Assembly: GCF_029910095.1 (NCBI RefSeq) | Contig: NZ_CP094526.1 | Coordinates: 558,001-622,000 of the forward strand | Reading direction: 5' to 3' | Length of the DNA: 64,000 nt | Source of the DNA: Bradyrhizobium sp. ISRA464 | GTDB lineage: Bacteria; Pseudomonadota; Alphaproteobacteria; Rhizobiales; Xanthobacteraceae | Made by a program: the position numbers and the translations under genes | Part shown: positions 5,358 to 57,916 of the stretch, one piece after another | Layout: each line of letters starts with the position of its first letter | Numbering within the stretch: the first letter of the stretch is position 1 | The notes under the pieces: generated by a model | Told to the model about the DNA's origin: nothing | Seen by the model: only the letters and a program-made list of their open reading frames with translations | Databases searched by the model: none

Positions 5358-5775
5358 GGGTGCTCTCCTTCACTTGAGTTCCAGGATTTTCTGCGAGCGT
5401 ATCCGCAGGAACTCCCAGACCTTCTCCGCAGCAGTTCGAGCCGTATGCAGGCGTGCTGTCGGGTGCTGGCCGAGCAGAAACCGCTGACGGATCAGCCGCT
5501 GGCGATCCGGGCGCGCGAGGCGCGCCGGAGCCGCCGATAAATTTGTGCATGCACAGGCCAAGGCCACACATAACAAGGCAAGGCAGCACGCTCAGGAGAA
5601 CCGATGCAATTCCCGCTGCAACGAGCCAACTCCAACTGGCGGCCGTAATGCCAATCAGCGCCAAGCCAGCGACCGCGAGCAGAAACCATTTGTTGGCGAC
5701 ATAGCGCCGAATTGCCATCCGGCTTACGGCGCCCGCCATCGTGTTCACCGAACTGGTTGATTGAGGTCCATTCAT
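5350..5775 (-). CDS. Two-helix membrane protein of unknown function
   Basis: A 141-residue protein starting at the ATG at 5775, which has a GGAGA 7 bases upstream. Two adjacent membrane helices lie at about residues 29-72. A cysteine-containing segment follows (CLVMCGLGLCMHK), then a Pro/Ala/Ser-rich C-terminal region with a CC pair (SNCCGEG). I do not recognise the family. The Cys and Met residues near the membrane fit a role in metal handling, but that is inferred from the cluster. The gene lies 17 bases after the TlpA-like gene and overlaps the Met-rich gene. Confidence 0.6.
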   Translation of the reverse strand: MNGPQSTSSVNTMAGAVSRMAIRRYVANKWFLLAVAGLALIGITAASWSWLVAAGIASVLLSVLPCLVMCGLGLCMHKFIGGSGAPRAPGSPAADPSAVSARPAPDSTPAYGSNCCGEGLGVPADTLAENPGTQVKESTHA

Positions 5776-5792
5776 TGTCTTTCTCCGCATTT

Positions 5793-6461
5793 TCACCAGG
5801 TCAGGAGCGCCTTCACCCAATGGACGCCACGCATGAAGGGACCTGATCCATCCGGAACATCCGACGATGATGGTGGACTGCCTCGATCGGCGTGATTGAT
5901 GGGGACGGTGTGATCCGCAATGTAGGGCTTGAGGAACTCGGCAATCTCGGGCGCGTCCCATTCGGCCGGGCCCACGATGCGGCCGATCTCCTGTCCGGCC
6001 CGACTGACGAGTAGCGTCGTCGGCAGACCGAGTGCTCGCACTTGGTGAAGCACCTGGCCGGAGGAATCGGAATACATTGCGAGATTGTGGACGCCGATTT
6101 CGTTGTAGAATTTGCCGATCGTTTCCATTCCGCCCCGGTCGATGGAAACAGGGATCACCTCGAAGCCCGCGCCGCCTAACGTCGCTTGCAGGCGATCCAG
6201 CGCCGGCATTTCCTTGCGGCACGGCACGCACCACGTTGCCCAGATGTTGACCAGCAAGACCTTACCGCTGAAATCGGCAAGGCTGCGCGTGTGCCCGCCG
6301 GCATCGTTGAAGCTGATCGTCGCGATGGGAGTCGGCTTGTCGAGGAGGACAAAGTTCTTCGGCGCTTCGGCGGCATTTGACATGTGTAAGGTCGCAACAA
6401 GCGTGGTTGCACACAGCCATGTGGCGAAACCAATAGACTTTGCGCCGGTGTTACGCGTCAT
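5793..6461 (-). CDS. TlpA/ResA-type periplasmic thioredoxin
   Basis: A 222-residue protein with a signal peptide (cleavage near SNAAEA) and a TlpA/ResA/AhpC-TSA thioredoxin domain containing the redox motif WCVPC in ATWCVPCRKEMP. The cis-Pro segment is GLPTTLL. TlpA-like proteins of rhizobia reduce the copper-site cysteines of SCO and the CuA subunit, which fits the SCO and Cox11 genes just downstream. The ATG at 6461 overlaps the stop of the preceding CcmG-like gene as ATGA, so the two are almost certainly co-translated. About 35 C-terminal residues beyond the domain, rich in Ser, Pro and Asp, are unusual. Confidence 0.88.
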   Translation of the reverse strand: MTRNTGAKSIGFATWLCATTLVATLHMSNAAEAPKNFVLLDKPTPIATISFNDAGGHTRSLADFSGKVLLVNIWATWCVPCRKEMPALDRLQATLGGAGFEVIPVSIDRGGMETIGKFYNEIGVHNLAMYSDSSGQVLHQVRALGLPTTLLVSRAGQEIGRIVGPAEWDAPEIAEFLKPYIADHTVPINHADRGSPPSSSDVPDGSGPFMRGVHWVKALLTW

Positions 6462-24139: not shown

Positions 24140-24353
24140 TACAGTCGCCGAGCGGGGCAACGTCCCGAACGCTATGTCACCAAGGTGGCGGTGTCTTAAT
24201 CCACGGGTACGATTGGCCTACTCAGCAGCGCTGCGTCTTCATCTGATGGATTCAATAAGATCAAATGGATAGGCAACAAGTTCGGAACAAAATAAGAACA
24301 TTTACCTCTGGTTAACCGTGACGTGTCAGTTTATCATGCAACCGGAGCGAGAC

Positions 24354-25220
24354 ATGGGCCAGACTTCGAAAATTGAATGGACGGATTCAACATTCAACCC
24401 ATGGGTCGGCTGCACCAAGATCGATCGGCCGGGCGGCGCTCCTTCGGCTTGCGATTTTTGCTACGCGGAGGGCTGGTCAAAGCGAAGCGGTCACGTCAAA
24501 TGGGGCAACAATCCCCGCCGGAGAACAACGGAATCGTATTGGCGATCTCCGGTGAAGTGGAATGCTTCCGCGCAAGGGTTTCAGCGGCGACACGGACGTC
24601 GCCAGCGCGTCTTCTGCGCGTCCTTGGCTGACGTCTTTGACAATCAGGTCGACCCGAACTGGCGCACCGACCTTTGGCGGTTGATCCGCGAATGCGATCA
24701 TCTCGATTGGCAGCTGCTCACCAAGCGTCCCCAGAATATTAAAAAAATGCTGCCCGAAGATTGGGGGCGCGGATATACAAATGTCTGGCTTGGCACGACT
24801 GCCGAAGATGCCGCGGCCTATCAACAGCGAGGAAAGCATCTCCTGGCTGTCCCGGCCGCAGTACATTTCGTGAGCTACGAGCCGGCAATGGGCCCCCTCG
24901 GATCCCTATCGATAGCTGGCAAAGTGCCTGATTGGGTAATCATCGGGGGTGAAAGCGGCGTGGCTCTGGAAAAGACCAGACCTACTCATCCACAGTGGGC
25001 GCGAGACGCGATTGCCGAATGTCATCGCATCGGGTCTGCGCCGTTCCTCAAACAGTGGGGTCGCTATGCAAATAACCCGCTGGTGGTGGAACAGGGCATG
25101 ACAGAGCGCGAAGCCGCTGCGGTCGACCCGGGCGAGAACGGGAAGGGCGGTGGCCTGTTAGACGGCAGGCTTCACCGTGATTTCCCAAAAAGTGTGGGAT
25201 TCGAAGTAGCTGCGGCTTGA
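24354..25220 (+). CDS. DUF5131 / phage Gp37-Gp68-like three-cysteine protein
   Basis: A 288-residue protein starting at the ATG at 24354 with GGAG 6 bases upstream. It opens MGQTSKIEWTDSTFNPWVGCTKI and has CDFCYAE: three cysteines (C20, C33, C36), the three-Cys motif of the DUF5131/Gp37/Gp68 family, a radical-SAM-like group related to spore photoproduct lyase. Later blocks RVFCASLADVFD, WQLLTKRPQNI, NVWLGTTAED, FVSYEPAMGPL and WVIIGGESG are all standard for the family. The gene is followed 32 bases later by its usual partner, TcmP. The biochemical role is not established. GC content looks lower than in the flanking metal cluster, which fits acquired DNA. Confidence 0.88.
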   Translation: MGQTSKIEWTDSTFNPWVGCTKIDRPGGAPSACDFCYAEGWSKRSGHVKWGNNPRRRTTESYWRSPVKWNASAQGFQRRHGRRQRVFCASLADVFDNQVDPNWRTDLWRLIRECDHLDWQLLTKRPQNIKKMLPEDWGRGYTNVWLGTTAEDAAAYQQRGKHLLAVPAAVHFVSYEPAMGPLGSLSIAGKVPDWVIIGGESGVALEKTRPTHPQWARDAIAECHRIGSAPFLKQWGRYANNPLVVEQGMTEREAAAVDPGENGKGGGLLDGRLHRDFPKSVGFEVAAA

Positions 25221-25252
25221 GATTGACCAGCTGATGCTCCAGCATCGGTTGC

Positions 25253-26122
25253 ATGAACAAACAAGGCGTCCTTTTCGGCGATCTTCCGCCCACCGACCGG
25301 CCACTTCGCTTTCGGTCGCCGGACCGTCCTATTTGGACGGAAAACAAAGCGAAGTTGATCGAGCGGTACCTCTACTACTTCGTGATGATCACCAAGCACG
25401 GCGCTTACATCGATGGCTTTGCAGGACCTCAGTACCCAGGCAAAGAGGATGCATGGGCCGCGAAACTCGTGATCGAATCCAAGCCGCCCTTTCTAAGAAA
25501 ATTCTGGTTGTGTGAGCAGGCCAAAGAAAAGCTGCCTGCGTTGTACGAGCTTGCAGCGTCCAACAAGATGAAAAATAGAACGATTAAAGTCCTGCCTGGC
25601 GATTTCAATGCGAACCTTGCTGGGATTCTTAGCAGTGGCGCAATCACAGACAAGATGGCGACGTTTTGCTTGCTTGATCAGCACACTTTCGAGTGCGAAT
25701 GGAGTTCGTTGCAGGCGCTGGCAACTCACAAGTCAGGCAATAAGATTGAACTGTTTTATTTTTTGGCCACTGGATGGCTTGATCGAGCCATGGCCGCAAC
25801 CACGCGCAACCAAGATATTCTTTCCAAGTGGTGGGGTGGTAGTGATTGGAAAAAACTACAAGGCATGAAATCGTTCGACCGCGCTTTGCTTTTCGCGAGC
25901 CGATTTAAAGGCGAGTTCAACTACAAACATGCGCATGCGTGGCCCATTTACGATAAAGAGGGCGGCGCGCGCCGCGTCATGTACCATATGATCCATGCAT
26001 CGGATCACGATGAAGCACCCAAGCTAATGAGTCGCGCTTACCGCAAGGCCAATGAGCCAAAAGAGGACTTGGCGGAGATACAGCGAGAACTCTTCGGCCT
26101 TGAGAGTTTTCAGAAGCGATGA
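25253..26122 (+). CDS. tcmP: Three-Cys-motif partner protein TcmP
   Basis: A 289-residue protein of the TcmP family. Signature parts are KLIERYLYYFVMITKHGAYIDGFAGPQ (the DGFAGP block), then FWLCEQAKEKLPALYELA, IKVLPGDFNANLAGIL, TFCLLDQHTFECEW and IELFYFLATGWLDRA. It ends with MSRAYRKANEPKEDLAEIQRELFG. TcmP is defined by its pairing with DUF5131 proteins, as here; it resembles a Rossmann-fold methyltransferase, but its activity is unproven. The third gene (26256) follows on the same strand, so an operon of three is likely. Confidence 0.88.
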   Translation: MNKQGVLFGDLPPTDRPLRFRSPDRPIWTENKAKLIERYLYYFVMITKHGAYIDGFAGPQYPGKEDAWAAKLVIESKPPFLRKFWLCEQAKEKLPALYELAASNKMKNRTIKVLPGDFNANLAGILSSGAITDKMATFCLLDQHTFECEWSSLQALATHKSGNKIELFYFLATGWLDRAMAATTRNQDILSKWWGGSDWKKLQGMKSFDRALLFASRFKGEFNYKHAHAWPIYDKEGGARRVMYHMIHASDHDEAPKLMSRAYRKANEPKEDLAEIQRELFGLESFQKR

Positions 26123-26678: not shown

Positions 26679-26860
26679 TGCTGATTCCGCTCGATGTCGC
26701 CCAGGATTCCGGAATGATCTCGCCCACCGTTCCGATTTGATGTCGCCCACCATTCCGAGATGATCTCGCCCACCATTCCGGGATGATGTCGCCCCGGGGT
26801 GACGAGGCCTCTTCTGGCTCCGCTACGGTCCTGCCTTTCGGCTTTGCGAAGGGGACCTGG

Positions 26861-28420
26861 ATGCCGACGGAGAGGTTTGCGATGCGCCATGTGCGCGATG
26901 TGATCAGATTGAAGTCGGCCGGGATGCCGACCCGCGAGATTGCGCGGCGGGTCGGAACGGCACCTTCGACGGTGCGGTTGACGATCCGCCGGTTCGAGGC
27001 GGCGGGGCTGACCTGGCCGTTGCCAGACGACGTCACCGACACGGTGCTGGAGGCCCGGCTGTTCGCCAGCGCCGGAGCCGGTCCGGGCACCCGGCGGGGC
27101 CATCGGCGGCAGCCCGAGCCGGACTGGGCGGCGGTGCATCGCGAGCTCAAGCGCAAGCACGTGACGCTGTCGGTCCTGTGGGAGGAGTACATCGCGGGCG
27201 AACCCGGCGGGTATCGCTATTCGCGGTTCTGCGAGCTGTACCGGGCCTGGGAAGGCCGGCTGTCGGTGACGATGCGCCAGTCGCATGCAGCCGGCGACAA
27301 GCTGTTCGTCGACTATGCCGGCGACGGCGTGCCGGTGGTGATCGACCGGTTCACCGGCGAGCGGCGCGCCGCGCAGATCTTCGTCGCGGTGCTCGGCGCA
27401 TCGAGCTTCACCTACGCGCAGGCGACCTGGACGCAGGGGCTCACCGACTGGATCAGCGGCCACGTCGGCGCCTTCGAGGCGATCGGCGGCGTGCCGGCGC
27501 TCTTGGTGCCGGACAACACCAAGGTCGCGGTGATCAAAGCCTGCCTCTACGATCCGCAGATCAACCGCAGCTACGCCGACATGGCGGCGCATTACGGCAC
27601 CGCCATTCTGCCGGCCAGGCCACGGCGGCCACGCGACAAGGCGAAGGTCGAGCAGGCGGTCCTCATGGTCGAGCGCTGGCTGCTTGGACGGCTGCGCCAC
27701 CGGACCTTCCACAGCCTCGCCGAGGTCAACGCGGCGATCGCCGAGTTAATGACCCGGCTCAACGAGGAGCGACCGATCCGGCGGCTCGGCGTGACCCGCC
27801 GCAAGCTATTGGAGGAGATCGACCGGCCGGCACTCAAGGCCTTGCCGGAAAGCCCTTACGTGTTTGCCGAGTGGCGGATCTGCCGGGTCAGCATCGACTA
27901 TCACGTCGAGGTCGAGGCGCATTACTACAGCGTCCCGCATCGCTTCGTCCGCGCCGAAGTTGAGGTACGCGTCACCGCCCGCACCGTCGAGATTTTCCAC
28001 AAGGGTGAGCGGATCGCCGCGCATCAGCGCATGAGCGGCAACCACAAGCACACGACCGTGCCGGAGCACATGGCCTCCAGTCATCGGCGCTACGCCGGCT
28101 GGACCATCGAGCGCATCCGCAAGGAGGCCGCCATCATCGGACCGGCCACCGCGGCGCTGTGCGATCTGATCCTCGATGAGCGTTCGCATCCGGAACAGGG
28201 CTTCCGCGCTTGCCTCGGCATCATCCGGCTCGCCCGATCCTACGGGCAACAGCGGCTCGATGCCGCCGCCATGCGGGCGATCGATATCGGCGCGCGCACT
28301 TACGGTTCGGTCAAATCGATCCTCGCCAACAACCTTGATCGGCGTCCTTCACCCAAGCGCTCCGCGGACGACGCGCCGATCCTTCATCCCAACATCCGCG
28401 GGCCGCGCTACTACAACTAG
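26861..28420 (+). CDS. istA: IS21-family transposase IstA
   Basis: A 519-residue transposase starting MPTERFAMRHVRDVIRLK. An N-terminal helix-turn-helix (AGMPTREIARRVGTAPSTVRLTIRRFEAAG) binds the ends. The DDE core is seen in KLFVDYAGDGVPVV, ALLVPDNTKVAVI and KAKVEQAVLMVERWLL, and the C-terminal part has the VEAHYYSVPHRF motif common to IstA. The frame is intact. An in-frame ATG at 26783 upstream is possible but unlikely. istB follows after 12 bases. Confidence 0.93.
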   Translation: MPTERFAMRHVRDVIRLKSAGMPTREIARRVGTAPSTVRLTIRRFEAAGLTWPLPDDVTDTVLEARLFASAGAGPGTRRGHRRQPEPDWAAVHRELKRKHVTLSVLWEEYIAGEPGGYRYSRFCELYRAWEGRLSVTMRQSHAAGDKLFVDYAGDGVPVVIDRFTGERRAAQIFVAVLGASSFTYAQATWTQGLTDWISGHVGAFEAIGGVPALLVPDNTKVAVIKACLYDPQINRSYADMAAHYGTAILPARPRRPRDKAKVEQAVLMVERWLLGRLRHRTFHSLAEVNAAIAELMTRLNEERPIRRLGVTRRKLLEEIDRPALKALPESPYVFAEWRICRVSIDYHVEVEAHYYSVPHRFVRAEVEVRVTARTVEIFHKGERIAAHQRMSGNHKHTTVPEHMASSHRRYAGWTIERIRKEAAIIGPATAALCDLILDERSHPEQGFRACLGIIRLARSYGQQRLDAAAMRAIDIGARTYGSVKSILANNLDRRPSPKRSADDAPILHPNIRGPRYYN

Positions 28421-28432
28421 GGAGATCACGCC

Positions 28433-29176
28433 TTGCTCACCCATCCGACCCTCGATCAGCTTCACGCGCTCGGCCTTCATGGCATGGCCAAGGCTTTCGC
28501 CGACATCGAAGCCGGCGGCGAGGCCGCCAGCCTCGGCCACGCCGAATGGCTTGCGCTGCTGCTCGAACGTGAAGCGTCGCTGCGGCGCGACAAGCGACTG
28601 TCGAAGCGGCTGCAATACGCCAAGCTGCGCCAGCAGGCCTGCGTCGAGGACATCGACTATCGCACCCCGCGCGGCCTCGACCGCAGCCTCTTGACGATGC
28701 TGGTCGAAGGCCAATGGATCGACGACCACACCAATCTTTTGATCTGTGGCCCGTCCGGCGTCGGCAAGAGCTGGCTCGCTTCGGCGCTCGGCAACAAAGC
28801 CTGCCGCGACAATCGCTCCGTGCTCTATCAGCGCGTCCCGCGACTGTTCAGTGATCTCGCCTTGGCGCGCGGCGACGGCCGCCACCCGCGTCTGCTGCGC
28901 GCACTGGGCCGTGTCGATCTGCTCATCCTCGACGACTGGGGCCTCGAGCCGCTCGACGCCGCGGCCCGGCACGACCTCCTGGAGATCCTCGAGGACCGCT
29001 ACGGCCACCGCTCCACCATCGTCACCAGCCAGCTCCCCGTCGATCAATGGCACGCGCTGATCGGCGACCCCACCTACGCCGATGCCGTCCTCGACCGCCT
29101 GGTCCACAATGCTCACCGGATCGATCTCAACGGCGAGAGCCTGCGGCGAACCCGCAAGCCCGGCCGAACGGCCTGA
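28433..29176 (+). CDS. istB: IS21-family transposition helper ATPase IstB
   Basis: A 247-residue AAA+ ATPase starting from a TTG with GGAGATCACGCC before it. The N-terminal helical part (THPTLDQLHALGLHGMAKAF) precedes Walker A in LLICGPSGVGKSWLASALG and Walker B in VDLLILDDWGLEPL, and the sensor region has STIVTSQLPVDQWH. IstB assembles on target DNA and loads IstA. The frame is complete, so the element may still transpose. Confidence 0.93.
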   Translation: MLTHPTLDQLHALGLHGMAKAFADIEAGGEAASLGHAEWLALLLEREASLRRDKRLSKRLQYAKLRQQACVEDIDYRTPRGLDRSLLTMLVEGQWIDDHTNLLICGPSGVGKSWLASALGNKACRDNRSVLYQRVPRLFSDLALARGDGRHPRLLRALGRVDLLILDDWGLEPLDAAARHDLLEILEDRYGHRSTIVTSQLPVDQWHALIGDPTYADAVLDRLVHNAHRIDLNGESLRRTRKPGRTA

Positions 29177-29639: not shown

Positions 29640-30569
29640 CTAGACTTGGGCGGCGGCTCCTTGGGCAGTTCGCATTAGCATACGGCTGTCCGAGATTGTC
29701 TCGTCGTATCGCTCCACGAACTTCACAAACTTCGAACGGTCCTGGTTATAGCTCTCGATCCATCGGCTAAGCGCTCCCTGGAAGGCTCTCACGAGCTCCA
29801 TGAACCCGAAGAAGTAGGTGCCATCGGCATCTGTTTCCGGCTTACCGCCAACACGGATCGAGATCCTCCGCACCTTCTTCTCATTGACCTTTCGCGAGCT
29901 CAAATTTGTCATGTGGAGAAGACTGTTGCGGAGCTCCCAAAGCTCCTCCGGTGTGACCCCGACAATTGATAGGTCGGCGTAGGTGGACAGCCATCGCACG
30001 AAAGGTTGGAAGTCGCGCGCGTCGCCAAACTCGATATAGGCGACGCTATCAATGCATGAGACCAGCAGCTTGGCAGCAGAGACGTGAAGGCCCGCGTTAA
30101 AGGTGAGCTTGATCGCCAGAAAAAAGTCGTCGTGGATCAGCTGGGGAAGGTCGATGCCCTCCTCTCTCGTGTACTTGATCAGCCAGTCGTCCATCGTCGC
30201 ATCGCCGATCGTCTGGGGCGTGAGGTAAAAGTGGGTGTCATGGTGATGCACAGTCGCATTGACCATGACGCGCCCGTTACAAACCAGACTGGTCACGAAC
30301 AGGGGCGCTTTGCCAGCGCCTTCCTTCTGGAATATTTGGTCGTAGAGCTCGTGGCCCCGGCCTAATCGGCAATGCGAGTAGTATTCGGAGCGCGTGAAAG
30401 TACGCGGCAGATCGATTCGCGTAGCGACCTTCAAATCGTCGTCAATGCAGTTCTGAAGGAAGCGTACTCCCGCTTCATCGTCGCCGGCGAACTCGTGAGC
30501 CACATAGAGCGCGTGGCCGCATCGCTCGTCTTTGAATGGCAGGAAAATGTTGAAGATGGTTTCGCTCAT
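29640..30569 (-). CDS. HEPN-like protein of unknown function (first of three)
   Basis: A 309-residue protein starting at the ATG at 30569 (MSETIFNIFLPFKDE) after a GGGGGG-rich site. An in-frame stretch back to 30761 has no support. The C-terminal half is helical and contains R214-N-S-L-L-H219 in ELWELRNSLLHMTNLS, the R-N-x3-H motif of HEPN ribonucleases. It follows a helical stretch (LHVSAAKLLVSCIDSVAYIEFG) that resembles the first HEPN helix. No N-terminal domain is recognised. It is divergent from the two other HEPN-like genes, with about 266 bases between, so they may share a control region. HEPN proteins often act as toxins or RNases in anti-phage and toxin-antitoxin systems; that role is inferred. 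Confidence 0.65.
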   Translation of the reverse strand: MSETIFNIFLPFKDERCGHALYVAHEFAGDDEAGVRFLQNCIDDDLKVATRIDLPRTFTRSEYYSHCRLGRGHELYDQIFQKEGAGKAPLFVTSLVCNGRVMVNATVHHHDTHFYLTPQTIGDATMDDWLIKYTREEGIDLPQLIHDDFFLAIKLTFNAGLHVSAAKLLVSCIDSVAYIEFGDARDFQPFVRWLSTYADLSIVGVTPEELWELRNSLLHMTNLSSRKVNEKKVRRISIRVGGKPETDADGTYFFGFMELVRAFQGALSRWIESYNQDRSKFVKFVERYDETISDSRMLMRTAQGAAAQV

Positions 30570-30835
30570 AACCCCCCGGAGCGGGTCTAACTCGCAATGG
30601 GTCCCAAATCCAGCGATGCTGCTGCCCCGCAGCGTCGAAAGGCTCGAACAGATGTGCGTGAAGGATATCGCCGGCATGTCGCCTTCAAGCACGTTAGGGC
30701 CTCGCCAACAAAAAAGCCGAGACTCAGTCCGGACTGCCGAAAATACCAACGATCCCACCACGTTTCCATATTCGCACGATTGTTATTCACTCCAGAAAGG
30801 TGATATTCGCAAGGTTTTCAACTCACGGTCATACG

Positions 30836-32017
30836 ATGTCCCAGCCCGACGAATGGATTCAGATGTTCACCTTGCCGAACATCCTGATCGAGGAGCCCGT
30901 TGAGATCGATGGCGTCGCGATGGTCCCCGCACACGATCCTCGCGCGCTGGAGCTGGCGAAGCGCCATAAGCAGTTCGAGATGTACCTCAACCGCTTCACC
31001 TCAGAATTCGGTCAGCAGGTCAGCCCGAGCATCATTCTGGTGAAGACAGAAAAGTTCGAGCAATACCGATCAGCAGAAGCTCTTGCAGGATTTCGAGACG
31101 CGGTGGCGATGTCCACAATTCCCTACGCTTGGGCGCACGTCCTCAGGTTCGAGAACAATCACAATATCAAATACGCCAATTGGTTTTCGTTTTACCCGTG
31201 GTTGGTCGATTCCAAGTACGGAGGACTTGTCATGCAGAGTATGGTTCAGACCGGCTGGCATGAAGTCCGGGCGATAAAGGGCCAGACGAGCCCCGGTATC
31301 CCCCATATGGCCCTCCCGGCCAACATGGTCGACAAAGCACTTCTCCCGGCACTCCTAGAGCGATGGGTGGCACGGTTCGGTTCAGCCAATCCGTCCAAGA
31401 AGGACACTTCCTTATTCCGCTCGCTCAACATGGCGCTATCAGCGGCGATGTTGCCCGGCAACGTCGAGGTGACGATTTACGACCTTGGGCGGTCGATCGC
31501 ACTGTGGGTCAGTGCCTTCGAGATTCTGACTCCTAACGGGACCTGTGAGGAGGTCTACAAGCTGTTAGAAAGTACGAAGTGGAATCTGTCCGATAATGCC
31601 GATGCGATCTATGAACCTCACAAATACAAGCCCGGCCAACCCAAGCGACCGCTACCTGTCTGGCTCTACGGCGCGATGAACCACGCGCGGAATGACTTTC
31701 TACATGGCAATCCCATTGACCCTATGCGGTTGATCGTTGCGCCGGGCAAACGACCGCTCCACCTCTACAGCGCCCTTCTCTACCGCATGGCGCTGACCGC
31801 ATTCCTTGACCTCAAGCCTCCTCCGCAGGTCAAAAAGGACGGAGAATCCGACTACGACACTCACTGGCGGCATATGCACGAGTTCGGCTGGTACCAGAGC
31901 AACATCGAAGCCGCGATAGCCACGGTCATTTTCACCCAGGATGAATACCGGGCTATGAGACAGGGGAAAGTCGGCCAGGCAATGATGCGCAGCCGGCACA
32001 AACCAGTGAGCCAGTGA
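30836..32017 (+). CDS. HEPN-like protein of unknown function (second of three)
   Basis: A 393-residue protein from the ATG at 30836 (MSQPDEWIQMFTLP). It has mixed alpha/beta character in the first half and a helical second half with R285-N-D-F-L-H290 in GAMNHARNDFLHGNPIDP, again an R-N-x3-H HEPN motif, after LGRSIALWVSAFEIL. It is about twice the size of a minimal HEPN protein, so a further domain is present but not recognised. Its stop overlaps the next start as TGATG, so the two proteins are made together. Confidence 0.65.
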   Translation: MSQPDEWIQMFTLPNILIEEPVEIDGVAMVPAHDPRALELAKRHKQFEMYLNRFTSEFGQQVSPSIILVKTEKFEQYRSAEALAGFRDAVAMSTIPYAWAHVLRFENNHNIKYANWFSFYPWLVDSKYGGLVMQSMVQTGWHEVRAIKGQTSPGIPHMALPANMVDKALLPALLERWVARFGSANPSKKDTSLFRSLNMALSAAMLPGNVEVTIYDLGRSIALWVSAFEILTPNGTCEEVYKLLESTKWNLSDNADAIYEPHKYKPGQPKRPLPVWLYGAMNHARNDFLHGNPIDPMRLIVAPGKRPLHLYSALLYRMALTAFLDLKPPPQVKKDGESDYDTHWRHMHEFGWYQSNIEAAIATVIFTQDEYRAMRQGKVGQAMMRSRHKPVSQ

Positions 32018-32586
32018 TGTTCCCGATCCACTCTCGTTTCCCGAAGGAAATGGCGGTCATCGGCCGGTTGCTGGTCGATTACGGCGACCTTGAGCTAGAT
32101 CTCATGAATTGCGTGCAGGTCATGCGGGGTTATGACCTCAATAGCACCCTAAAGACGATGTTCAGGGTCAGAGGTGAGACAAGCAGGATCGATATCGCCG
32201 ATGGGCTTGGACGTGTGCCCTACACCGCAGTCAATATGGCTTCTGAGTTCGATGCCGTTATCGCAGCGATGCGGCAGTGCTTGAAAATCAGAAATCGGTA
32301 CGCCCACGCCTTCTGGCATGACCCCAACCAAGGCAGAGCGCTTTGCTACGTTTCGCTTGAGGAACTGGCCAAGGAGGTCGACGAGGTTCGCGACCTCACC
32401 TCACTGACCTTCTTCTATATCGACGAGGCGCTGTTGCTCAAACAGGAGCAGTTTTTTGAGTACACCCGCGCGCTCATCAACCACGTGAACCATCAGGGGC
32501 AGTTCAAGAGCGGGAAATCCTTGCAACAGCCTTTCCCATTACCCAAGGCCGTACCCAACCCTCCAGCCTATACCCGAAAAGCTTAG
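32017..32586 (+). CDS. Small HEPN-like protein (third of three)
   Basis: A 189-residue protein starting at the ATG that overlaps the previous stop. It is mostly helical, with LLVDYGDLELDLMNCVQ as the first helix and R92-N-R-Y-A-H97 in LKIRNRYAHAFW, a strong R-N-x3-H motif. A hydrophobic/acidic helix follows (EELAKEVDEVRDLTSLTFFYIDEALLLKQ) and a Pro-rich tail. Its size fits a minimal HEPN domain. Co-translation with the larger HEPN gene suggests a complex or a toxin/partner pair. Confidence 0.65.
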   Translation: MFPIHSRFPKEMAVIGRLLVDYGDLELDLMNCVQVMRGYDLNSTLKTMFRVRGETSRIDIADGLGRVPYTAVNMASEFDAVIAAMRQCLKIRNRYAHAFWHDPNQGRALCYVSLEELAKEVDEVRDLTSLTFFYIDEALLLKQEQFFEYTRALINHVNHQGQFKSGKSLQQPFPLPKAVPNPPAYTRKA

Positions 32587-32681: not shown

Positions 32682-33302
32682 CCCCGCCTATGGCGGGGCG
32701 AAAACCGGCAGTTCTACAGCTGCGGGAATGAAGTCATGGAGTCTCCTTGGGGAACCGCCAAGAACCCTCAAGGAGACCATGATGGAAGCAGAGTACAATC
32801 ATCTTAATCACGCGACTTGGGAGTGCAAGTACCACGTCGTGTTTACGCCGAAGTACCGCAAGAAGCTGCTGTTCGGGAAGATCAAGCGACATCTGGGCCA
32901 GGTATTTCACGATCTGGCACGACGGAAGGAGTGCCGGATCGAGGAAGGTCACCTGATGCCGGATCATGTCCACATGCTGATATCGATACCTCCGAAATAT
33001 TCGGTGGCGCAGATCATCGGGTATATGAAGGGGAAGAGTTCGATCTGGATCGCGCAGAACGTCGAACGGAAGATGCGAAATTTCCTGGGCCACAAATTCT
33101 GGGCACGCGGATATTTTGTCACGACCGTCGGCCGCGATGAGGAAATGATCCGGGCCTACATCAAGAATCAGGAAATGGCCGACCAGCAACTGGATCAGTT
33201 TGAGCTAAAGATTTCAGCTGCCCCAAAATCCAAGCAATCGTCCTAACATCCCTTAAAACCGCCTTTGGCGGTTCCCAATCAAACCTCCAGCTTTGCTGGA
33301 GG
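32682..33302 (+). mobile_element. IS200-like element (boundaries approximate)
   Basis: A single tnpA gene is flanked by imperfect hairpins: CCCCGCC-TAT-GGCGGGG at 32682-32698 and CCTCCAG-CTTTG-CTGGAGG at about 33284-33302, as in IS200/IS605 elements, which lack inverted repeats and target duplications. No tnpB is present. The outer ends are uncertain by a few tens of bases. Confidence 0.75.
32782..33246 (+). CDS. tnpA: IS200-family HUH transposase TnpA
   Basis: A 154-residue Y1 HUH transposase from MEAEYNHLNHATWECKYHVVFTPKYRKKLLFG. The HUH motif is in MPDHVHMLISIPPKYSVAQIIGYMKGKSS, and the catalytic Tyr is likely in the AYIKNQE helix (IRAYIKNQEMADQQ). The length matches intact IS200 TnpA. 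Two ATGs are adjacent (32779 and 32782); a GGAG lies upstream. Confidence 0.93.
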   Translation: MEAEYNHLNHATWECKYHVVFTPKYRKKLLFGKIKRHLGQVFHDLARRKECRIEEGHLMPDHVHMLISIPPKYSVAQIIGYMKGKSSIWIAQNVERKMRNFLGHKFWARGYFVTTVGRDEEMIRAYIKNQEMADQQLDQFELKISAAPKSKQSS

Positions 33303-35561: not shown

Positions 35562-38042
35562 CTATCGCGCAGCGAGTGCGCTCGATGTGACTATCTGGCC
35601 GGAAAACAAATCGCGACCCAATATCTTGTAACCAATTGACTGATAGCCAAGGCGGCGTTTCGCAGCCATGCGGGCCAGAACCGGCACTCTCATGTCGACA
35701 TAATCATATATGATCACCTCGCGCTTGGCGTCGTTGAGACGATGCAACCGTCCGGCATACTGGGCAAGCGTGCCTTTCCAAGCGATCGGCATGGTAAGAA
35801 AAAGGGTATCGAGGCGAGAATCATCGAAACCCTCGCCGAGGTAGCGTCCCGTCGCGACTATGACACGTTCCTCGCCTTCGGGAATTGCTGCGAGCCGTGC
35901 GGCGCTGTCGCGCCGCTGCTTCTCGCTTTGCCCACCGCGCAATACGATCACATGCCTCGCGAAACGCTCAAGACGCTTTGCGATGATCTCTAAGTGGGCG
36001 GTACGCTCCGTTATCACGACGGGTGAACGACCCGCTTCCAGCGCACGCAAGACGTCATCGAATATAAGATCATTGCGCGCTTCATCAACGACCATTTCCT
36101 TGAAAACATCCTGGATGGAAGGAGAAGAGGTGCCCAATGTGGCTTGGAGTTGGAAGCTGGTATCCCTGATCCGCACCACGTGATCGAATGGGCGCTTGGC
36201 GGCCTCGGATCGCGCATCTACACGATGGCGGATGGGGCCACATTGCATAACGATGATCGGGTGATGCCCGTCTTTTCGGGTCACCGTTGCCGACAGGCCT
36301 AGGATGTAACGTGGCTTGCTGCGGCGCGCGACGAGTTCAAAGCTCACCGCCGACAAATGGTGGCATTCATCGACTACGAGATGCCCATAATTGCCGACGA
36401 TATCATTGACCTCTCCTTTGCGAACAAGGCTCTGGATCAGTGCGACATCAACCTGACCCTTTGGTTCGCGACGACCACCGCCTATCATGCCTATCGCATC
36501 GCGCGGCAGGCTTGAGAACGCGGTAAGCCGCTCAATCCATTGATCCATTAGTTGACGGCGATGAACGAGGATCAACGTATTCAATCCGCGTTCGGCCATC
36601 ATGCGGATAGCTAAGACCGTTTTGCCGAACGCCGTCGATGCCGCAAGCACGCCGGTATCGTGCGGCAACAGGGCTGCGATCGCGCGCTCCTGGTTTGGGC
36701 GCAGTGCCCCGGTGAATGCGAATGGGATCGGCGCACCGGTAGTGCGGCAATCTTCGATTGTTACTGCAATTCCAACTGACGCAAGGAGATCGCGAACGGC
36801 GTCGAAGCACCCGCGAGGCAGAGCAACGTGATGGCTAGTCAACTCCGCGCAAGAGATGATCCGAGGCTTGTCATGGGTCGATCGGCGCATCGCTTGTGCA
36901 GCGTAGAATTCGGGGTTCTGGAACGCAGCGAGACGAATAAGGCGAGCGATCAAGGGCGGCGGTAGCGCGTGACGCGGGATGTAAACCTGGTCAGCCTGCA
37001 CGATGGTGATCGCGCTTGGCAGTGGCCCGCTTATTGTTGGCGGTGGCTGTCGGCGCGATGGCGGGGCAAGCCACGGTTCTTCGTCTTCGTCGACAAGAGG
37101 AATGCGTACGCCGAGAATTTTTCCAGATGCACTCGCTTCCTCGACCAGATGATCCACCCCCGATCGCGCCATAGGTTCAATCGCTGACAGGAAGGCCCAT
37201 TGATCCAGATATGGCGAACAAGACTCATCGATGAACACGCTGTTGCCAGAACTTCGCGCGAGTCCCTGAAGCGGCAAGGCAATCAAATTACCGAAGCCAC
37301 CCACCGGCATTGTATCCTGGCTCGGAAAAAACCGATCGTAGGATCCGAATCCGATATCGGGGACACGTTCCATCGTGTCGGTGATTAGGAAGGCCCCGAG
37401 ACGGCGCGCCGACGCCGCCGGTATCGGTTCCTCGAAAAAAATCCAAGCGTGAGCACCGTTTCCGGATCGCGACCGCTCAATGGCAACAGGAATTTTGTGG
37501 CGCTGGCAGGTCTCCCTGAAAGCGAAGACATCTCTTCGCCATTCCCCTTCGTCGAAATCCGCGGCCAGGAACGAACAGGTATTATCCGCAAGCATCGGAT
37601 AAACGCCCATAACGAACGGGGCGCCATTCGTGTCGGTCCCGCGTAGATGGCGTTCGATCGACACTTCATCTACGGCCTGGAATGCCTGATTTGGACATGC
37701 CGAACATTTGACTTTTGGTTTTTCGCAAATCCCACGCTGCCACTCATTCGTACAGGCAGGTGCATACCCGCTGCGCCCTGTCGTGCGATTCTCCCAACGG
37801 ATGGGGAAGACATCTGAGCGGCCGCGGAAAAGCCGGCGAAACAGAGCAATCTTCTTTTCGATTGTCGAATTCCGGTCGATGGGATCGCCGGCTTTTGCCG
37901 AAGGGACCGCTTTGACAGCCGCGGCCTCTTCACTCCGCACCGATCGCAGGGTGTTGATCTCGGCTAAGATCTCCGCGCGCTCTCCTTCCAGCGCCGTGAG
38001 CCGCGCCACGAGTTCGGTAATTCTGGCGTCCATTTGCGTCAT
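35562..38042 (-). CDS. TOTE-type archaeo-eukaryotic primase fused to a superfamily II helicase
   Basis: An 826-residue protein. An N-terminal coiled coil (about 1-45) is followed by a primase-like (AEP) domain (about 60-300) with the acidic pair D162 and D164 in FLAADFDE and the SGNGAHAWIFFE motif at 193-203. A Cys cluster (C97, C106, C113, C116) may bind zinc. A superfamily II helicase occupies about 440-800: GKT at 473-475 (STAFGKTVLAI), DECH at 558-561, SAT at 584-586 and the motif VI segment YAGRLHRLN. This AEP-helicase layout is that of TOTE conflict systems, proposed to act against invading nucleic acid; here no nuclease domain is visible at the C-terminus. It lies beside tRNA-Arg at the island edge. 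Confidence 0.8.
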   Translation of the reverse strand: MTQMDARITELVARLTALEGERAEILAEINTLRSVRSEEAAAVKAVPSAKAGDPIDRNSTIEKKIALFRRLFRGRSDVFPIRWENRTTGRSGYAPACTNEWQRGICEKPKVKCSACPNQAFQAVDEVSIERHLRGTDTNGAPFVMGVYPMLADNTCSFLAADFDEGEWRRDVFAFRETCQRHKIPVAIERSRSGNGAHAWIFFEEPIPAASARRLGAFLITDTMERVPDIGFGSYDRFFPSQDTMPVGGFGNLIALPLQGLARSSGNSVFIDESCSPYLDQWAFLSAIEPMARSGVDHLVEEASASGKILGVRIPLVDEDEEPWLAPPSRRQPPPTISGPLPSAITIVQADQVYIPRHALPPPLIARLIRLAAFQNPEFYAAQAMRRSTHDKPRIISCAELTSHHVALPRGCFDAVRDLLASVGIAVTIEDCRTTGAPIPFAFTGALRPNQERAIAALLPHDTGVLAASTAFGKTVLAIRMMAERGLNTLILVHRRQLMDQWIERLTAFSSLPRDAIGMIGGGRREPKGQVDVALIQSLVRKGEVNDIVGNYGHLVVDECHHLSAVSFELVARRSKPRYILGLSATVTRKDGHHPIIVMQCGPIRHRVDARSEAAKRPFDHVVRIRDTSFQLQATLGTSSPSIQDVFKEMVVDEARNDLIFDDVLRALEAGRSPVVITERTAHLEIIAKRLERFARHVIVLRGGQSEKQRRDSAARLAAIPEGEERVIVATGRYLGEGFDDSRLDTLFLTMPIAWKGTLAQYAGRLHRLNDAKREVIIYDYVDMRVPVLARMAAKRRLGYQSIGYKILGRDLFSGQIVTSSALAAR

Positions 38043-38185: not shown

Positions 38186-38262
38186 TGGTGCACCCGACAC
38201 GATTCGAACGTGTGGCCTTCGCCTTCGGAGGGCGACGCTCTATCCAGCTGAGCTACGGGTGC
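38186..38262 (-). tRNA. tRNA-Arg (anticodon CCG)
   Basis: Seventy-seven bases on the minus strand fold as a tRNA. The acceptor stem GCACCCG pairs with CGGGTGC before the encoded ACCA. The D arm is GCTC-AGCTGGAT-AGAGC, the anticodon loop CTCCGAA has anticodon CCG, and the T arm contains GTTCGAATC. It reads the CGG codon. It lies at the right edge of the mobile and defence region, a common integration site for ICEs. Confidence 0.95.
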
Positions 38263-51868: not shown

Positions 51869-51993
51869 TAGGACTAAACCGCTCGCGCGGTAGGGCGCTG
51901 GGGCTGGCGACGCAGCCAAGACGATAGCGCGACGGGGCGTCCTGTTTTGAGATGAGGGGTTCGCAACCTTCACTCAAAACAGGAGCATCCCCA

Positions 51994-52872
51994 ATGACCA
52001 AGCAGGCCATCAGTCCGTTGCGCCAGCGCATGATCGAAGACATGGCGATCCGCAAGTTCGCGCCCAAGACCCAACACGACTACGTGCAAAGGGTCAAGGA
52101 CTTCGCGGTATTCCTCGGCCGCTCGCCCGACCTGGCCCAGTCGGAGGACGTGCGCGGCTTTCGGCTGCATCTGGCGTCGAACGGCGCCGGCGCGCCAAAG
52201 ATCAACGCCACCGTCTCGGCGCTGCGGTTCTTCTTCAATGTGACGCTCGATCGGCCCGAGCTTGCCAAGCACCTGTCGTTCATGCACGAGCCACGCAAGG
52301 TTCCGGTTGTTCTCAGCCCGGAAGAGGTTGCGCGCTTTCTGGAGGCGGCGCCGAGCATCAAATACAAGGCGGCGCTCAGTGTCGCTTACGGTGCAGGGTT
52401 GCGTGTCTCTGAGGTCGTCGCGTTGAAGGTATCCGACATCGATTCCGAACGCATGATGCTGCGCGTCGAGCAGGGCAAAGGCCGCAAGGATCGCCACGCG
52501 ATGCTTTCCCCTGTGCTGCTCGAACTTCTGCGCGATTGGTACCGCATTTCCCGCCCGCAGGGCTGGCTGTTTCCGGGACTGAAGCCGGCCAGCCCGATGA
52601 CGACGCGCCAGCTCACGCGCGCCTGCCACGCGGCGGCCCACATGGCCGAGATCGCCAAGCGGGTGACGCCGCACACCCTGCGCCACAGCTTCGCGACCCA
52701 CCTGCTCGAGCAGAACATTGATATTCGGGTGATCCAGGTCCTGTTGGGCCACGCCAAGCTCGAGACCACGGCGCTCTATACCCGCGTCGCCACCAACACC
52801 ATCCGCGAGGTCATGAGCCCGCTGGATCACCTCACCCCGCTCCGCGCCAAGCGAGACGAGCCGCCTGCCTGA
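51994..52872 (+). CDS. Tyrosine recombinase of the IS91-family element (copy 1)
   Basis: A 292-residue integrase from MTKQAISPLRQRMIEDM at 51994 after AGGAG. It has the catalytic Arg in AGLRVSEVVALK, the HxxR box HTLRHSFATHLLEQ, the later His in LLGHAKLETTALYTRV and its Tyr. The core-binding domain (YVQRVKDFAVFLGRSPDLA) is complete. It accompanies the HUH transposase, as in many IS91-like elements of Proteobacteria. Its start lies inside the shared element. Confidence 0.9.
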   Translation: MTKQAISPLRQRMIEDMAIRKFAPKTQHDYVQRVKDFAVFLGRSPDLAQSEDVRGFRLHLASNGAGAPKINATVSALRFFFNVTLDRPELAKHLSFMHEPRKVPVVLSPEEVARFLEAAPSIKYKAALSVAYGAGLRVSEVVALKVSDIDSERMMLRVEQGKGRKDRHAMLSPVLLELLRDWYRISRPQGWLFPGLKPASPMTTRQLTRACHAAAHMAEIAKRVTPHTLRHSFATHLLEQNIDIRVIQVLLGHAKLETTALYTRVATNTIREVMSPLDHLTPLRAKRDEPPA

Positions 52873-52886
52873 CGCGCAGGCCGCGC

Positions 52887-54077
52887 ATGTCGCGCCCGGC
52901 TTTGGAGGTTGCGGATATCTTCCGCAGCCATGGCCTAGCATGGCGTCAAGCCCATGCCGGTCATATCAGCCTCGACCAGATGAAGGTGATGTCGGCGATC
53001 GAGCGCTGCCGCACGGCGGCCCTCGGGGGCCACGTCGCGCGCTGCGCGGACTGCGCTTATACCACGATCGCCTACAACTCCTGCCGCAACCGGCACTGCC
53101 CGAAGTGCCAGGGCGCCGCCGCGAAGGACTGGCTTGCCGACCGCGAGGCCGAGCTGTTGCCGGTGCCGTACTATCACGTCGTGTTCACGCTGCCGGCGGC
53201 CATCGCCGACATCGCCTACCAGAACAAGGCCGTGGTCTACGATCTGCTGTTCAAGGTCTCGGCCGAGACCATGCTGACGATCGCCGCCGATCCGAAGCAT
53301 CTGGGTGGGCGGATCGGCGTCACCTCCGTGCTGCACACCTGGGGTTCGGCGCTGACCCATCACCCCCACGTGCACATGATCGTGCCGGGCGGCGGCATCT
53401 CGTCCGACGGCCAGCGCTGGGTGTCGTGCCGGCCGGGCTTCTTCCTGTCCGTGCGCGTGCTCTCCCGCCTGTTCCGGCGACTGTTCCTGGAGAAGCTTGT
53501 CGCCGCCCACCAAGCCGGCCGCCTCAGCTTCTTCGGCGACCACGCCCATCTCGCCGAGGCGCAATCCTTCGCGACTCATCTCGCCCCGCTGCGCACGGCC
53601 GAGTGGGTCGTCTATTCAAAGCGGCCGTTCGGCGGCCCTGAGGCGGTGCCGGCCTATCTGTCGCGCTACACCCATCGCGTGGCCATCGCCAACAGCCGAT
53701 TGATCGCCTGCGACGAGGGCGGCGTCACCTTCAAGTGGAAGGACTACCGCATCGAGGGCCGCGATCGATACAAGCAGATGACGCTCGCCACAGATGAGTT
53801 CATCCGCCGCTTCCTCATCCACGTGCTGCCAAAAGGCTTGCATCGCATCCGCCACTACGGCCTGTTCGCCAAAGGCGCTTGTGCCGCCAACGTCGCACGC
53901 GCCCGTGAGCTGCTCGCCGCTGCAAAACCTGAAGGCCAGCCTACCGCCGATCCCAGCAAGCCGAGCTGTCCATGCTGTGGCGGCTGCATGATCGTCATCG
54001 AGGTTTTCGCGCGCGGTGCAACGCCGCGGCATCGGCCGACAGCTCCAATGAACCGCATCAGGATCGACACCTCATGA
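52887..54077 (+). CDS. tnpA: IS91-family HUH transposase (copy 1)
   Basis: A 396-residue Y2-type HUH transposase. An N-terminal zinc-ribbon (CADC and CRNRHCPKCQG) is followed by the HUH motif HHPHVHMIVPGGG and the tyrosine region YLSRYTHRVAIANSRL. It ends with a second Cys cluster (PSCPCCGGCM). It lies 14 bases after the recombinase. IS91 elements move by rolling-circle transposition and can carry adjacent DNA. Confidence 0.93.
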   Translation: MSRPALEVADIFRSHGLAWRQAHAGHISLDQMKVMSAIERCRTAALGGHVARCADCAYTTIAYNSCRNRHCPKCQGAAAKDWLADREAELLPVPYYHVVFTLPAAIADIAYQNKAVVYDLLFKVSAETMLTIAADPKHLGGRIGVTSVLHTWGSALTHHPHVHMIVPGGGISSDGQRWVSCRPGFFLSVRVLSRLFRRLFLEKLVAAHQAGRLSFFGDHAHLAEAQSFATHLAPLRTAEWVVYSKRPFGGPEAVPAYLSRYTHRVAIANSRLIACDEGGVTFKWKDYRIEGRDRYKQMTLATDEFIRRFLIHVLPKGLHRIRHYGLFAKGACAANVARARELLAAAKPEGQPTADPSKPSCPCCGGCMIVIEVFARGATPRHRPTAPMNRIRIDTS

Positions 54078-55707: not shown

Positions 55708-55832
55708 TAGGACTAAACCGCTCGCGCGGTAGGGCGCTGGGGCTGGCGACGCAGCCAAGACGATAGCGCGACGGGGCGTCCTGTTTTGAGATGAGGGGTT
55801 CGCAACCTTCACTCAAAACAGGAGCATCCCCA

Positions 55833-56711
55833 ATGACCAAGCAGGCCATCAGTCCGTTGCGCCAGCGCATGATCGAAGACATGGCGATCCGCAAGTTCGC
55901 GCCCAAGACCCAACACGACTACGTGCAAAGGGTCAAGGACTTCGCGGTATTCCTCGGCCGCTCGCCCGACCTGGCCCAGTCGGAGGACGTGCGCGGCTTT
56001 CGGCTGCATCTGGCGTCGAACGGCGCCGGCGCGCCAAAGATCAACGCCACCGTCTCGGCGCTGCGGTTCTTCTTCAATGTGACGCTCGATCGGCCCGAGC
56101 TTGCCAAGCACCTGTCGTTCATGCACGAGCCACGCAAGGTTCCGGTTGTTCTCAGCCCGGAAGAGGTTGCGCGCTTTCTGGAGGCGGCGCCGAGCATCAA
56201 ATACAAGGCGGCGCTCAGTGTCGCTTACGGTGCAGGGTTGCGTGTCTCTGAGGTCGTCGCGTTGAAGGTATCCGACATCGATTCCGAACGCATGATGCTG
56301 CGCGTCGAGCAGGGCAAAGGCCGCAAGGATCGCCACGCGATGCTTTCCCCTGTGCTGCTCGAACTTCTGCGCGATTGGTACCGCATTTCCCGCCCGCAGG
56401 GCTGGCTGTTTCCGGGACTGAAGCCGGCCAGCCCGATGACGACGCGCCAGCTCACGCGCGCCTGCCACGCGGCGGCCCACATGGCCGAGATCGCCAAGCG
56501 GGTGACGCCGCACACCCTGCGCCACAGCTTCGCGACCCACCTGCTCGAGCAGAACATTGATATTCGGGTGATCCAGGTCCTGTTGGGCCACGCCAAGCTC
56601 GAGACCACGGCGCTCTATACCCGCGTCGCCACCAACACCATCCGCGAGGTCATGAGCCCGCTGGATCACCTCACCCCGCTCCGCGCCAAGCGAGACGAGC
56701 CGCCTGCCTGA
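55833..56711 (+). CDS. Tyrosine recombinase of the IS91-family element (copy 2)
   Basis: It has the same sequence as the recombinase at 51994-52872, with the same start after AGGAG and the same catalytic blocks. A complete second copy, also in frame. Confidence 0.9.
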   Translation: MTKQAISPLRQRMIEDMAIRKFAPKTQHDYVQRVKDFAVFLGRSPDLAQSEDVRGFRLHLASNGAGAPKINATVSALRFFFNVTLDRPELAKHLSFMHEPRKVPVVLSPEEVARFLEAAPSIKYKAALSVAYGAGLRVSEVVALKVSDIDSERMMLRVEQGKGRKDRHAMLSPVLLELLRDWYRISRPQGWLFPGLKPASPMTTRQLTRACHAAAHMAEIAKRVTPHTLRHSFATHLLEQNIDIRVIQVLLGHAKLETTALYTRVATNTIREVMSPLDHLTPLRAKRDEPPA

Positions 56712-56725
56712 CGCGCAGGCCGCGC

Positions 56726-57916
56726 ATGTCGCGCCCGGCTTTGGAGGTTGCGGATATCTTCCGCAGCCATGGCCTAGCATGGCGTCAAGCCCATGCCGGT
56801 CATATCAGCCTCGACCAGATGAAGGTGATGTCGGCGATCGAGCGCTGCCGCACGGCGGCCCTCGGGGGCCACGTCGCGCGCTGCGCGGACTGCGCTTATA
56901 CCACGATCGCCTACAACTCCTGCCGCAACCGGCACTGCCCGAAGTGCCAGGGCGCCGCCGCGAAGGACTGGCTTGCCGACCGCGAGGCCGAGCTGTTGCC
57001 GGTGCCGTACTATCACGTCGTGTTCACGCTGCCGGCGGCCATCGCCGACATCGCCTACCAGAACAAGGCCGTGGTCTACGATCTGCTGTTCAAGGTCTCG
57101 GCCGAGACCATGCTGACGATCGCCGCCGATCCGAAGCATCTGGGTGGGCGGATCGGCGTCACCTCCGTGCTGCACACCTGGGGTTCGGCGCTGACCCATC
57201 ACCCCCACGTGCACATGATCGTGCCGGGCGGCGGCATCTCGTCCGACGGCCAGCGCTGGGTGTCGTGCCGGCCGGGCTTCTTCCTGTCCGTGCGCGTGCT
57301 CTCCCGCCTGTTCCGGCGACTGTTCCTGGAGAAGCTTGTCGCCGCCCACCAAGCCGGCCGCCTCAGCTTCTTCGGCGACCACGCCCATCTCGCCGAGGCG
57401 CAATCCTTCGCGACTCATCTCGCCCCGCTGCGCACGGCCGAGTGGGTCGTCTATTCAAAGCGGCCGTTCGGCGGCCCTGAGGCGGTGCCGGCCTATCTGT
57501 CGCGCTACACCCATCGCGTGGCCATCGCCAACAGCCGATTGATCGCCTGCGACGAGGGCGGCGTCACCTTCAAGTGGAAGGACTACCGCATCGAGGGCCG
57601 CGATCGATACAAGCAGATGACGCTCGCCACAGATGAGTTCATCCGCCGCTTCCTCATCCACGTGCTGCCAAAAGGCTTGCATCGCATCCGCCACTACGGC
57701 CTGTTCGCCAAAGGCGCTTGTGCCGCCAACGTCGCACGCGCCCGTGAGCTGCTCGCCGCTGCAAAACCTGAAGGCCAGCCTACCGCCGATCCCAGCAAGC
57801 CGAGCTGTCCATGCTGTGGCGGCTGCATGATCGTCATCGAGGTTTTCGCGCGCGGTGCAACGCCGCGGCATCGGCCGACAGCTCCAATGAACCGCATCAG
57901 GATCGACACCTCATGA
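56726..57916 (+). CDS. tnpA: IS91-family HUH transposase (copy 2)
   Basis: It has the same sequence as the transposase at 52887-54077. The HUH and Tyr motifs are intact, so either copy may drive movement of the pair. Confidence 0.92.
   Translation: MSRPALEVADIFRSHGLAWRQAHAGHISLDQMKVMSAIERCRTAALGGHVARCADCAYTTIAYNSCRNRHCPKCQGAAAKDWLADREAELLPVPYYHVVFTLPAAIADIAYQNKAVVYDLLFKVSAETMLTIAADPKHLGGRIGVTSVLHTWGSALTHHPHVHMIVPGGGISSDGQRWVSCRPGFFLSVRVLSRLFRRLFLEKLVAAHQAGRLSFFGDHAHLAEAQSFATHLAPLRTAEWVVYSKRPFGGPEAVPAYLSRYTHRVAIANSRLIACDEGGVTFKWKDYRIEGRDRYKQMTLATDEFIRRFLIHVLPKGLHRIRHYGLFAKGACAANVARARELLAAAKPEGQPTADPSKPSCPCCGGCMIVIEVFARGATPRHRPTAPMNRIRIDTS

Follow-up and report, generated by a model that had tools for sequence, protein, structure and literature searches.

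Three adjacent genes, here called A, B and C, lie in a 64,000-nucleotide stretch (the window; positions 558001-622000) of the 8.46 Mb single-contig genome of Bradyrhizobium sp. ISRA464. Each encodes a protein with an R-N-x3-H motif of the HEPN type, and the three are best understood as HEPN-like defence genes caught in the course of gene-by-gene reshuffling. We think it probable that the region is a phage-defence locus in a mobile setting, assembled by gene-by-gene exchange, in which B, C and A would be HEPN-like ribonucleases (RNases).

Gene A (30569-29640, minus strand) occupies a divergent slot and encodes a 309-residue protein of HEPN-like family 1 with the motif RNSLLH. Gene B (30836-32017, plus strand; 393 residues, HEPN-like family 2) carries RNDFLH, and gene C (32017-32586, plus strand; 189 residues, HEPN-like family 3), the exchangeable downstream gene, carries RNRYAH. 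The start codons of A and B are 266 bp apart, and the stop codon of B and the start codon of C overlap as TGATG (32015-32019, plus strand). An IS21-type element, with an istA-like gene (26783-28420) and istB (28433-29176) assigned by the Pfam scan, forms one flank of A-B-C, and a Y1/IS200-type transposase (32728-33246) forms the other. The open reading frames (ORFs), their sizes and motifs, the overlap, the divergent orientation of A and the position between mobile elements had been described in a first-pass annotation of the DNA, and our analysis confirms them. It had also treated the three proteins as different in sequence, and pairwise comparison of the A, B and C profiles detected no similarity among the three families.

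Linkage and exchange of A, B and C

The first-pass annotation took the three genes together as a multi-part RNase or toxin system. In such a system the three HEPN RNases would act jointly, either as subunits or in a cascade; their adjacency, the co-translation of B and C and the intergenic control region common to A and B would allow this. However, A adjoins B in none of the 73 other B loci, and C adjoins B in two (in 56 of these loci the sequence reaches 2 kb or more upstream and 0.8 kb or more downstream; some are cut short). A whole-genome search of 50 of the 73 B genomes found A in 0/50 and C in the same two only. Among 297 genomes of the order (E ≤ 1e-10), A is present in 2, B in 2 and C in 5, and the window's own genome is the only one with more than one of them. 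Neither B nor C was found in the ten fetched A loci outside the window's own genome (L085-L091, L118, L121 and L139), and elsewhere another gene, D, or AbiV or other genes fill the divergent slot. A conserved three-part A-B-C system is not supported, and we regard joint action of the three proteins as very unlikely. The part of the earlier proposal that stands is the B-C pair, which is a genuine but exchangeable unit.

Gene A travels by itself. It was found in seven IMG/VR viral contigs, which fall into three groups (L085/L086/L089, L087/L088 and L090/L091), and in three conjugative plasmids. Four of the viral contigs (L085, L087, L090 and L091) were examined, and the setting of A could be read in three: in L085 it stands between genes for head morphogenesis and a head protease, in L087 it follows a portal gene, and in L090 a terminase gene lies near it. 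None of the three A-bearing plasmid records was matched by B or C. Searches of viral contigs and of plasmids with C gave no match, and neither did searches of phage records with A and B. A second A, a C-terminal fragment 94% identical over 273 bp, is located at 5.71 Mb in the same genome (G000:C1:5707995-5708261; L011, L140), next to an apparent transposase gene. In L139, a 159-residue protein with the motif RNNFFH (5601-6080), which Pfam and PADLOC scans left without a match, stops 4 bp upstream of the A gene. For part of the B family, an unnamed gene of 191-229 residues is a candidate conserved neighbour; it overlaps the end of B by 4 bases, tail to tail, in seven loci (L024, L025, L028, L030, L034, L040 and L064).

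Between C and its copies with other partners, homology at the DNA level starts around the TGATG, at the start codon or within about ten bases of it. B is the gene upstream of C in the window, L012 and L013. In L124 the upstream gene is a SIR2_2 gene (Pfam, E 3.6e-8) separated from C by a gap of about 10 bp. In L123 C is preceded by a disrupted gene whose fragments show homology to the L014 SLFN_AlbA_2 protein; the final fragment shares a TGATG overlap with C, as B does in the window. The intact SLFN_AlbA_2 gene (E 9.1e-16) of L014 follows B after 11 bp. While the B proteins of the window and L013 share 83% identity, their C proteins share 58%, and the B-linked L013 C is closer, at 82%, to the SIR2-linked C of L124; partners have therefore been exchanged. 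Remnants of C behind genes that we read as HipA-like (L006, L097-L099, L105 and L142) were not counted as partners, as C is cut there and, in L142, separated from the gene before it by 185 bp. L012 (NZ_JTIY01000013.1) is labelled Streptomyces sp. AcH 505, and its B and C DNA is 90.6% identical to the window over 1.9 kb; the record is perhaps a contaminating rhizobial contig or mislabelled.

B and C might instead form a toxin-antitoxin pair, one protein neutralising the other and the overlap balancing their synthesis. The TGATG junction, the small size of the second gene and the purifying selection on both (ratios of nonsynonymous to synonymous substitution, dN/dS, of 0.082 for B and 0.089 for C between the window and L012) are consistent with this arrangement. 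However, C was not found with B in 71 of the 73 loci, some of them cut short, and it also occurs alone or behind unrelated genes, so neither B nor C looks like an obligate antidote. C retains the full R-N-H motif, and the nucleotidyltransferase antitoxin of HEPN/MNT toxin-antitoxin systems was not found among ten window proteins scanned with Pfam (A, B, C and seven neighbours). We consider a toxin-antitoxin pair quite unlikely and prefer the exchangeable unit described above.

The divergent slot appears to have been exchanged as well. Gene D (291-313 residues) is the divergent gene in L014, L124 and L048; the three copies are related to one another, and by our reading of the sequence they have a membrane segment. 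The leader that precedes D in L048 and L124 is retained upstream of A (30675-30730, minus strand), where the window matches the L048 leader at 86% up to the old ATG of D and then switches to A. A 33-bp element of the D leader in L124 and L048 is also present between A and B in the window, where D is gone. Of 265 genomes of the genus, three contain its pattern, all at loci like this one, and control matches were 0 among the matches listed. Despite carrying D, L014 gave no match to the element, and the A loci fetched from outside the window's own genome gave none either. On the other strand, a rightward operon leader (GAAAGGTGATATTCGCAAGGTTTTCAACTCACGG; 30795-30832, plus strand) has counterparts ahead of B in L048 and of the AlbA remnant in L123; L014 and L124 contain only partial matches that fall below the threshold of the scan. 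We infer that A replaced D and not the reverse. At four further B loci the divergent gene is AbiV, assigned by Pfam in L025 and by cluster in L028, L034 and L064. Folding of the A/B leader was no better than that of shuffled sequences, and no Rfam family reached its gathering score there.

A broader reading is that C serves generally as a portable HEPN partner, translationally coupled to structurally unrelated defence effectors (the HEPN-type B, SIR2 and Schlafen/AlbA), and that the two-way leader, with swaps precise to the gene on either side of it, makes the locus a cassette-exchange platform for phage-defence genes in Bradyrhizobium. We regard this as possible but doubtful.

Motif conservation and predicted folds

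The motif alone is weak evidence of a HEPN protein, because a neighbouring transposase also contains R-N-x3-H (RNFLGH) and so do 30 of 890 background ORFs (3.4%), which were mechanically called at a length of at least 150 residues in the fetched loci with the three families excluded. Three R-N-x3-H genes in a row, taken alone, are suggestive only. At E ≤ 0.001 the databases hold 285 relatives of A, 899 of B and 126 of C; the listings give the best 120 per family. In alignments of 121 sequences (query plus these 120; one A, two B and one C sequence dropped for gaps), the three motif residues are retained together in 118/120 homologues covering the columns for A (R214-N215-x3-H219; 29913-29930, minus strand), 118/119 for B (R285-N286-x3-H290; 31688-31705, plus strand) and 116/120 for C (R92-N93-x3-H97; 32290-32307, plus strand). 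Since the three residues are conserved across each family, the motifs exceed chance. The motif of the HEPN superfamily is described as R-x4-6-H with a polar residue after the R, conserved within the family (PMC3710099), and the A, B and C families all show this pattern. Genes beside B were also compared with the background (six loci, being the window itself, duplicates or truncated, were dropped). R-N-x3-H was present in 9/103 against 30/890 (p 0.014), and we do not claim an enrichment, as p is 0.07 without the two C genes.

The first-pass annotation had placed the motifs in a helical context, which AlphaFold models of B and C (pLDDT, the predicted local distance difference test, 84 and 93, respectively) bear out. 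R-N-x3-H is predicted to terminate helix 273-289 in B and helix 75-96 in C, which is the HEPN position. B is modelled as an N-terminal alpha/beta part (about 1-180) followed by a C-terminal helical part (about 188-365). The acidic residue that HEPN proteins have in helix 2, when present, has a counterpart in both models: E54 of C, present in 116/116 covering homologues, opens helix 54-71, and E229 of B, invariant in 27 members, lies in helix 214-230. C has E-x2-R in place of the usual Ex3[KR] spacing. By model comparison the likeness to solved HEPN proteins is moderate for C and weak for B. With a root-mean-square deviation under 4, the best natural structural match of the C model is HepS (PDB 9oij), which we take to be a prophage HEPN defence protein. 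Foldseek gave no significant match for B and C against the PDB or for B against viral models.

HEPN profile searches gave no assignment: Pfam, NCBIfam and PADLOC scans of A, B and C found neither a significant HEPN match nor a named family, and Pfam and PADLOC scans of 27 members per family gave weak matches only. Among the latter, matches of the B family to Csx3 (Pfam 7/27, best E 0.0058; PADLOC 3/27 and 2/27) were set aside, as in B itself the match is located after the motif. Among the papers listed in literature searches, no title or abstract opening names the families or the locus.

A, and perhaps B, might be look-alikes outside the HEPN superfamily, with the conserved R-N-x3-H serving structure or some other chemistry. 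The missing profile matches, the weak fold matches of B, a helix placement that is modelled for B and C only and the motif of the transposase next door would agree with this reading. It is at odds with the joint near-invariance of R, N and H within each family and with the motif's predicted place at a helix end in B and C. We therefore think it unlikely that the motifs are look-alikes and read the three proteins as HEPN-like.

Known systems and proposed function

The occurrence of A among phage structural genes in two of the four viral contigs examined recalls both HepS and Tha, although the A, B and C profiles found no significant sequence match to solved structures. Tha is a prophage HEPN defence (PMC11087260). 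AbiV is an abortive-infection gene of a HEPN family (Pfam HEPN_AbiV) and stands divergently beside B in the four loci named above, whereas its Pfam model found no match in A, B or C or among 27 members per family. PD-T4-2 combines a DUF262 nucleoside triphosphatase with a HEPN protein, according to a table in PMC10952713 (source Vassallo 2022, PMC9519451). It is likewise a defence system with a HEPN component, and its model PD-T4-2_B was weakly matched by 8 of 27 C-family proteins (best E 0.0047). However, the window C had no PD-T4-2_B match, including in a search of its own genome with that model; a DUF262 gene was not found among the ten window proteins scanned, and the partners of C here are B, SIR2 and AlbA. 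A table in PMC3710099 lists ApeA-type proteins as HEPN proteins whose N-terminal part is long and rich in beta structure. Compared with this entry, B similarly pairs an alpha/beta N-terminal part with a C-terminal helical domain bearing R-x4-H in its model, and usually has neither C nor A alongside, whereas the models listed for B and its 27 members included none named ApeA.

Because conserved HEPN-type residues occur together with defence-type neighbours in a mobile setting, an abortive-infection RNase role is the most likely. B would most likely be a stand-alone abortive-infection RNase, in which the N-terminal alpha/beta part may detect a phage cue and the C-terminal HEPN-like domain, probably dimeric, may cleave host RNA so that phage growth is halted. 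C would be a small HEPN-like RNase made from the message of B, acting as a second effector or a regulator, and would be portable, as it is found in this position behind further genes of defence type. A would be an independent HEPN-like defence gene, also carried on prophages and plasmids, that took the place of D in the divergent slot and now sits behind the former leader of D. Of 265 genomes of the genus, 23 contain a match to C. Several of its copies in chromosomes, among the matches listed and with neighbours judged by eye, are truncated or alone, which leaves room for a role outside defence.

Regional context and implications

Just upstream of the IS21-type element, a DUF5131 gene is followed by a TcmP (three-Cys-motif partner) gene (24318-26122), and the pair matches the PADLOC candidate models PDC-M41B and PDC-M41A. 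The same region holds a conflict-system-type gene for an AEP-TOTE primase-helicase of 826 residues (35562-38042; Pfam AEP-TOTE, E 5e-95), which adjoins a gene for a 558-residue protein with weak HEAT-repeat matches; a tRNA-Arg gene is located at 38186. Two ORF pairs of equal size with the same visible starts, about 3.8 kb apart (51970-54077 and 55809-57916), look like a duplicated mobile element.

Three HEPN-like genes that lie adjacent are not necessarily one system, and similar loci should be read with this caution. A, B and C add three unnamed families (285, 899 and 126 relatives) to the probable HEPN RNases, and one of the three is also found in prophages. The locus appears to capture defence genes that are exchanged singly around a common two-way leader. 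If C does partner unrelated effectors, a small HEPN RNase can serve as a shared module.
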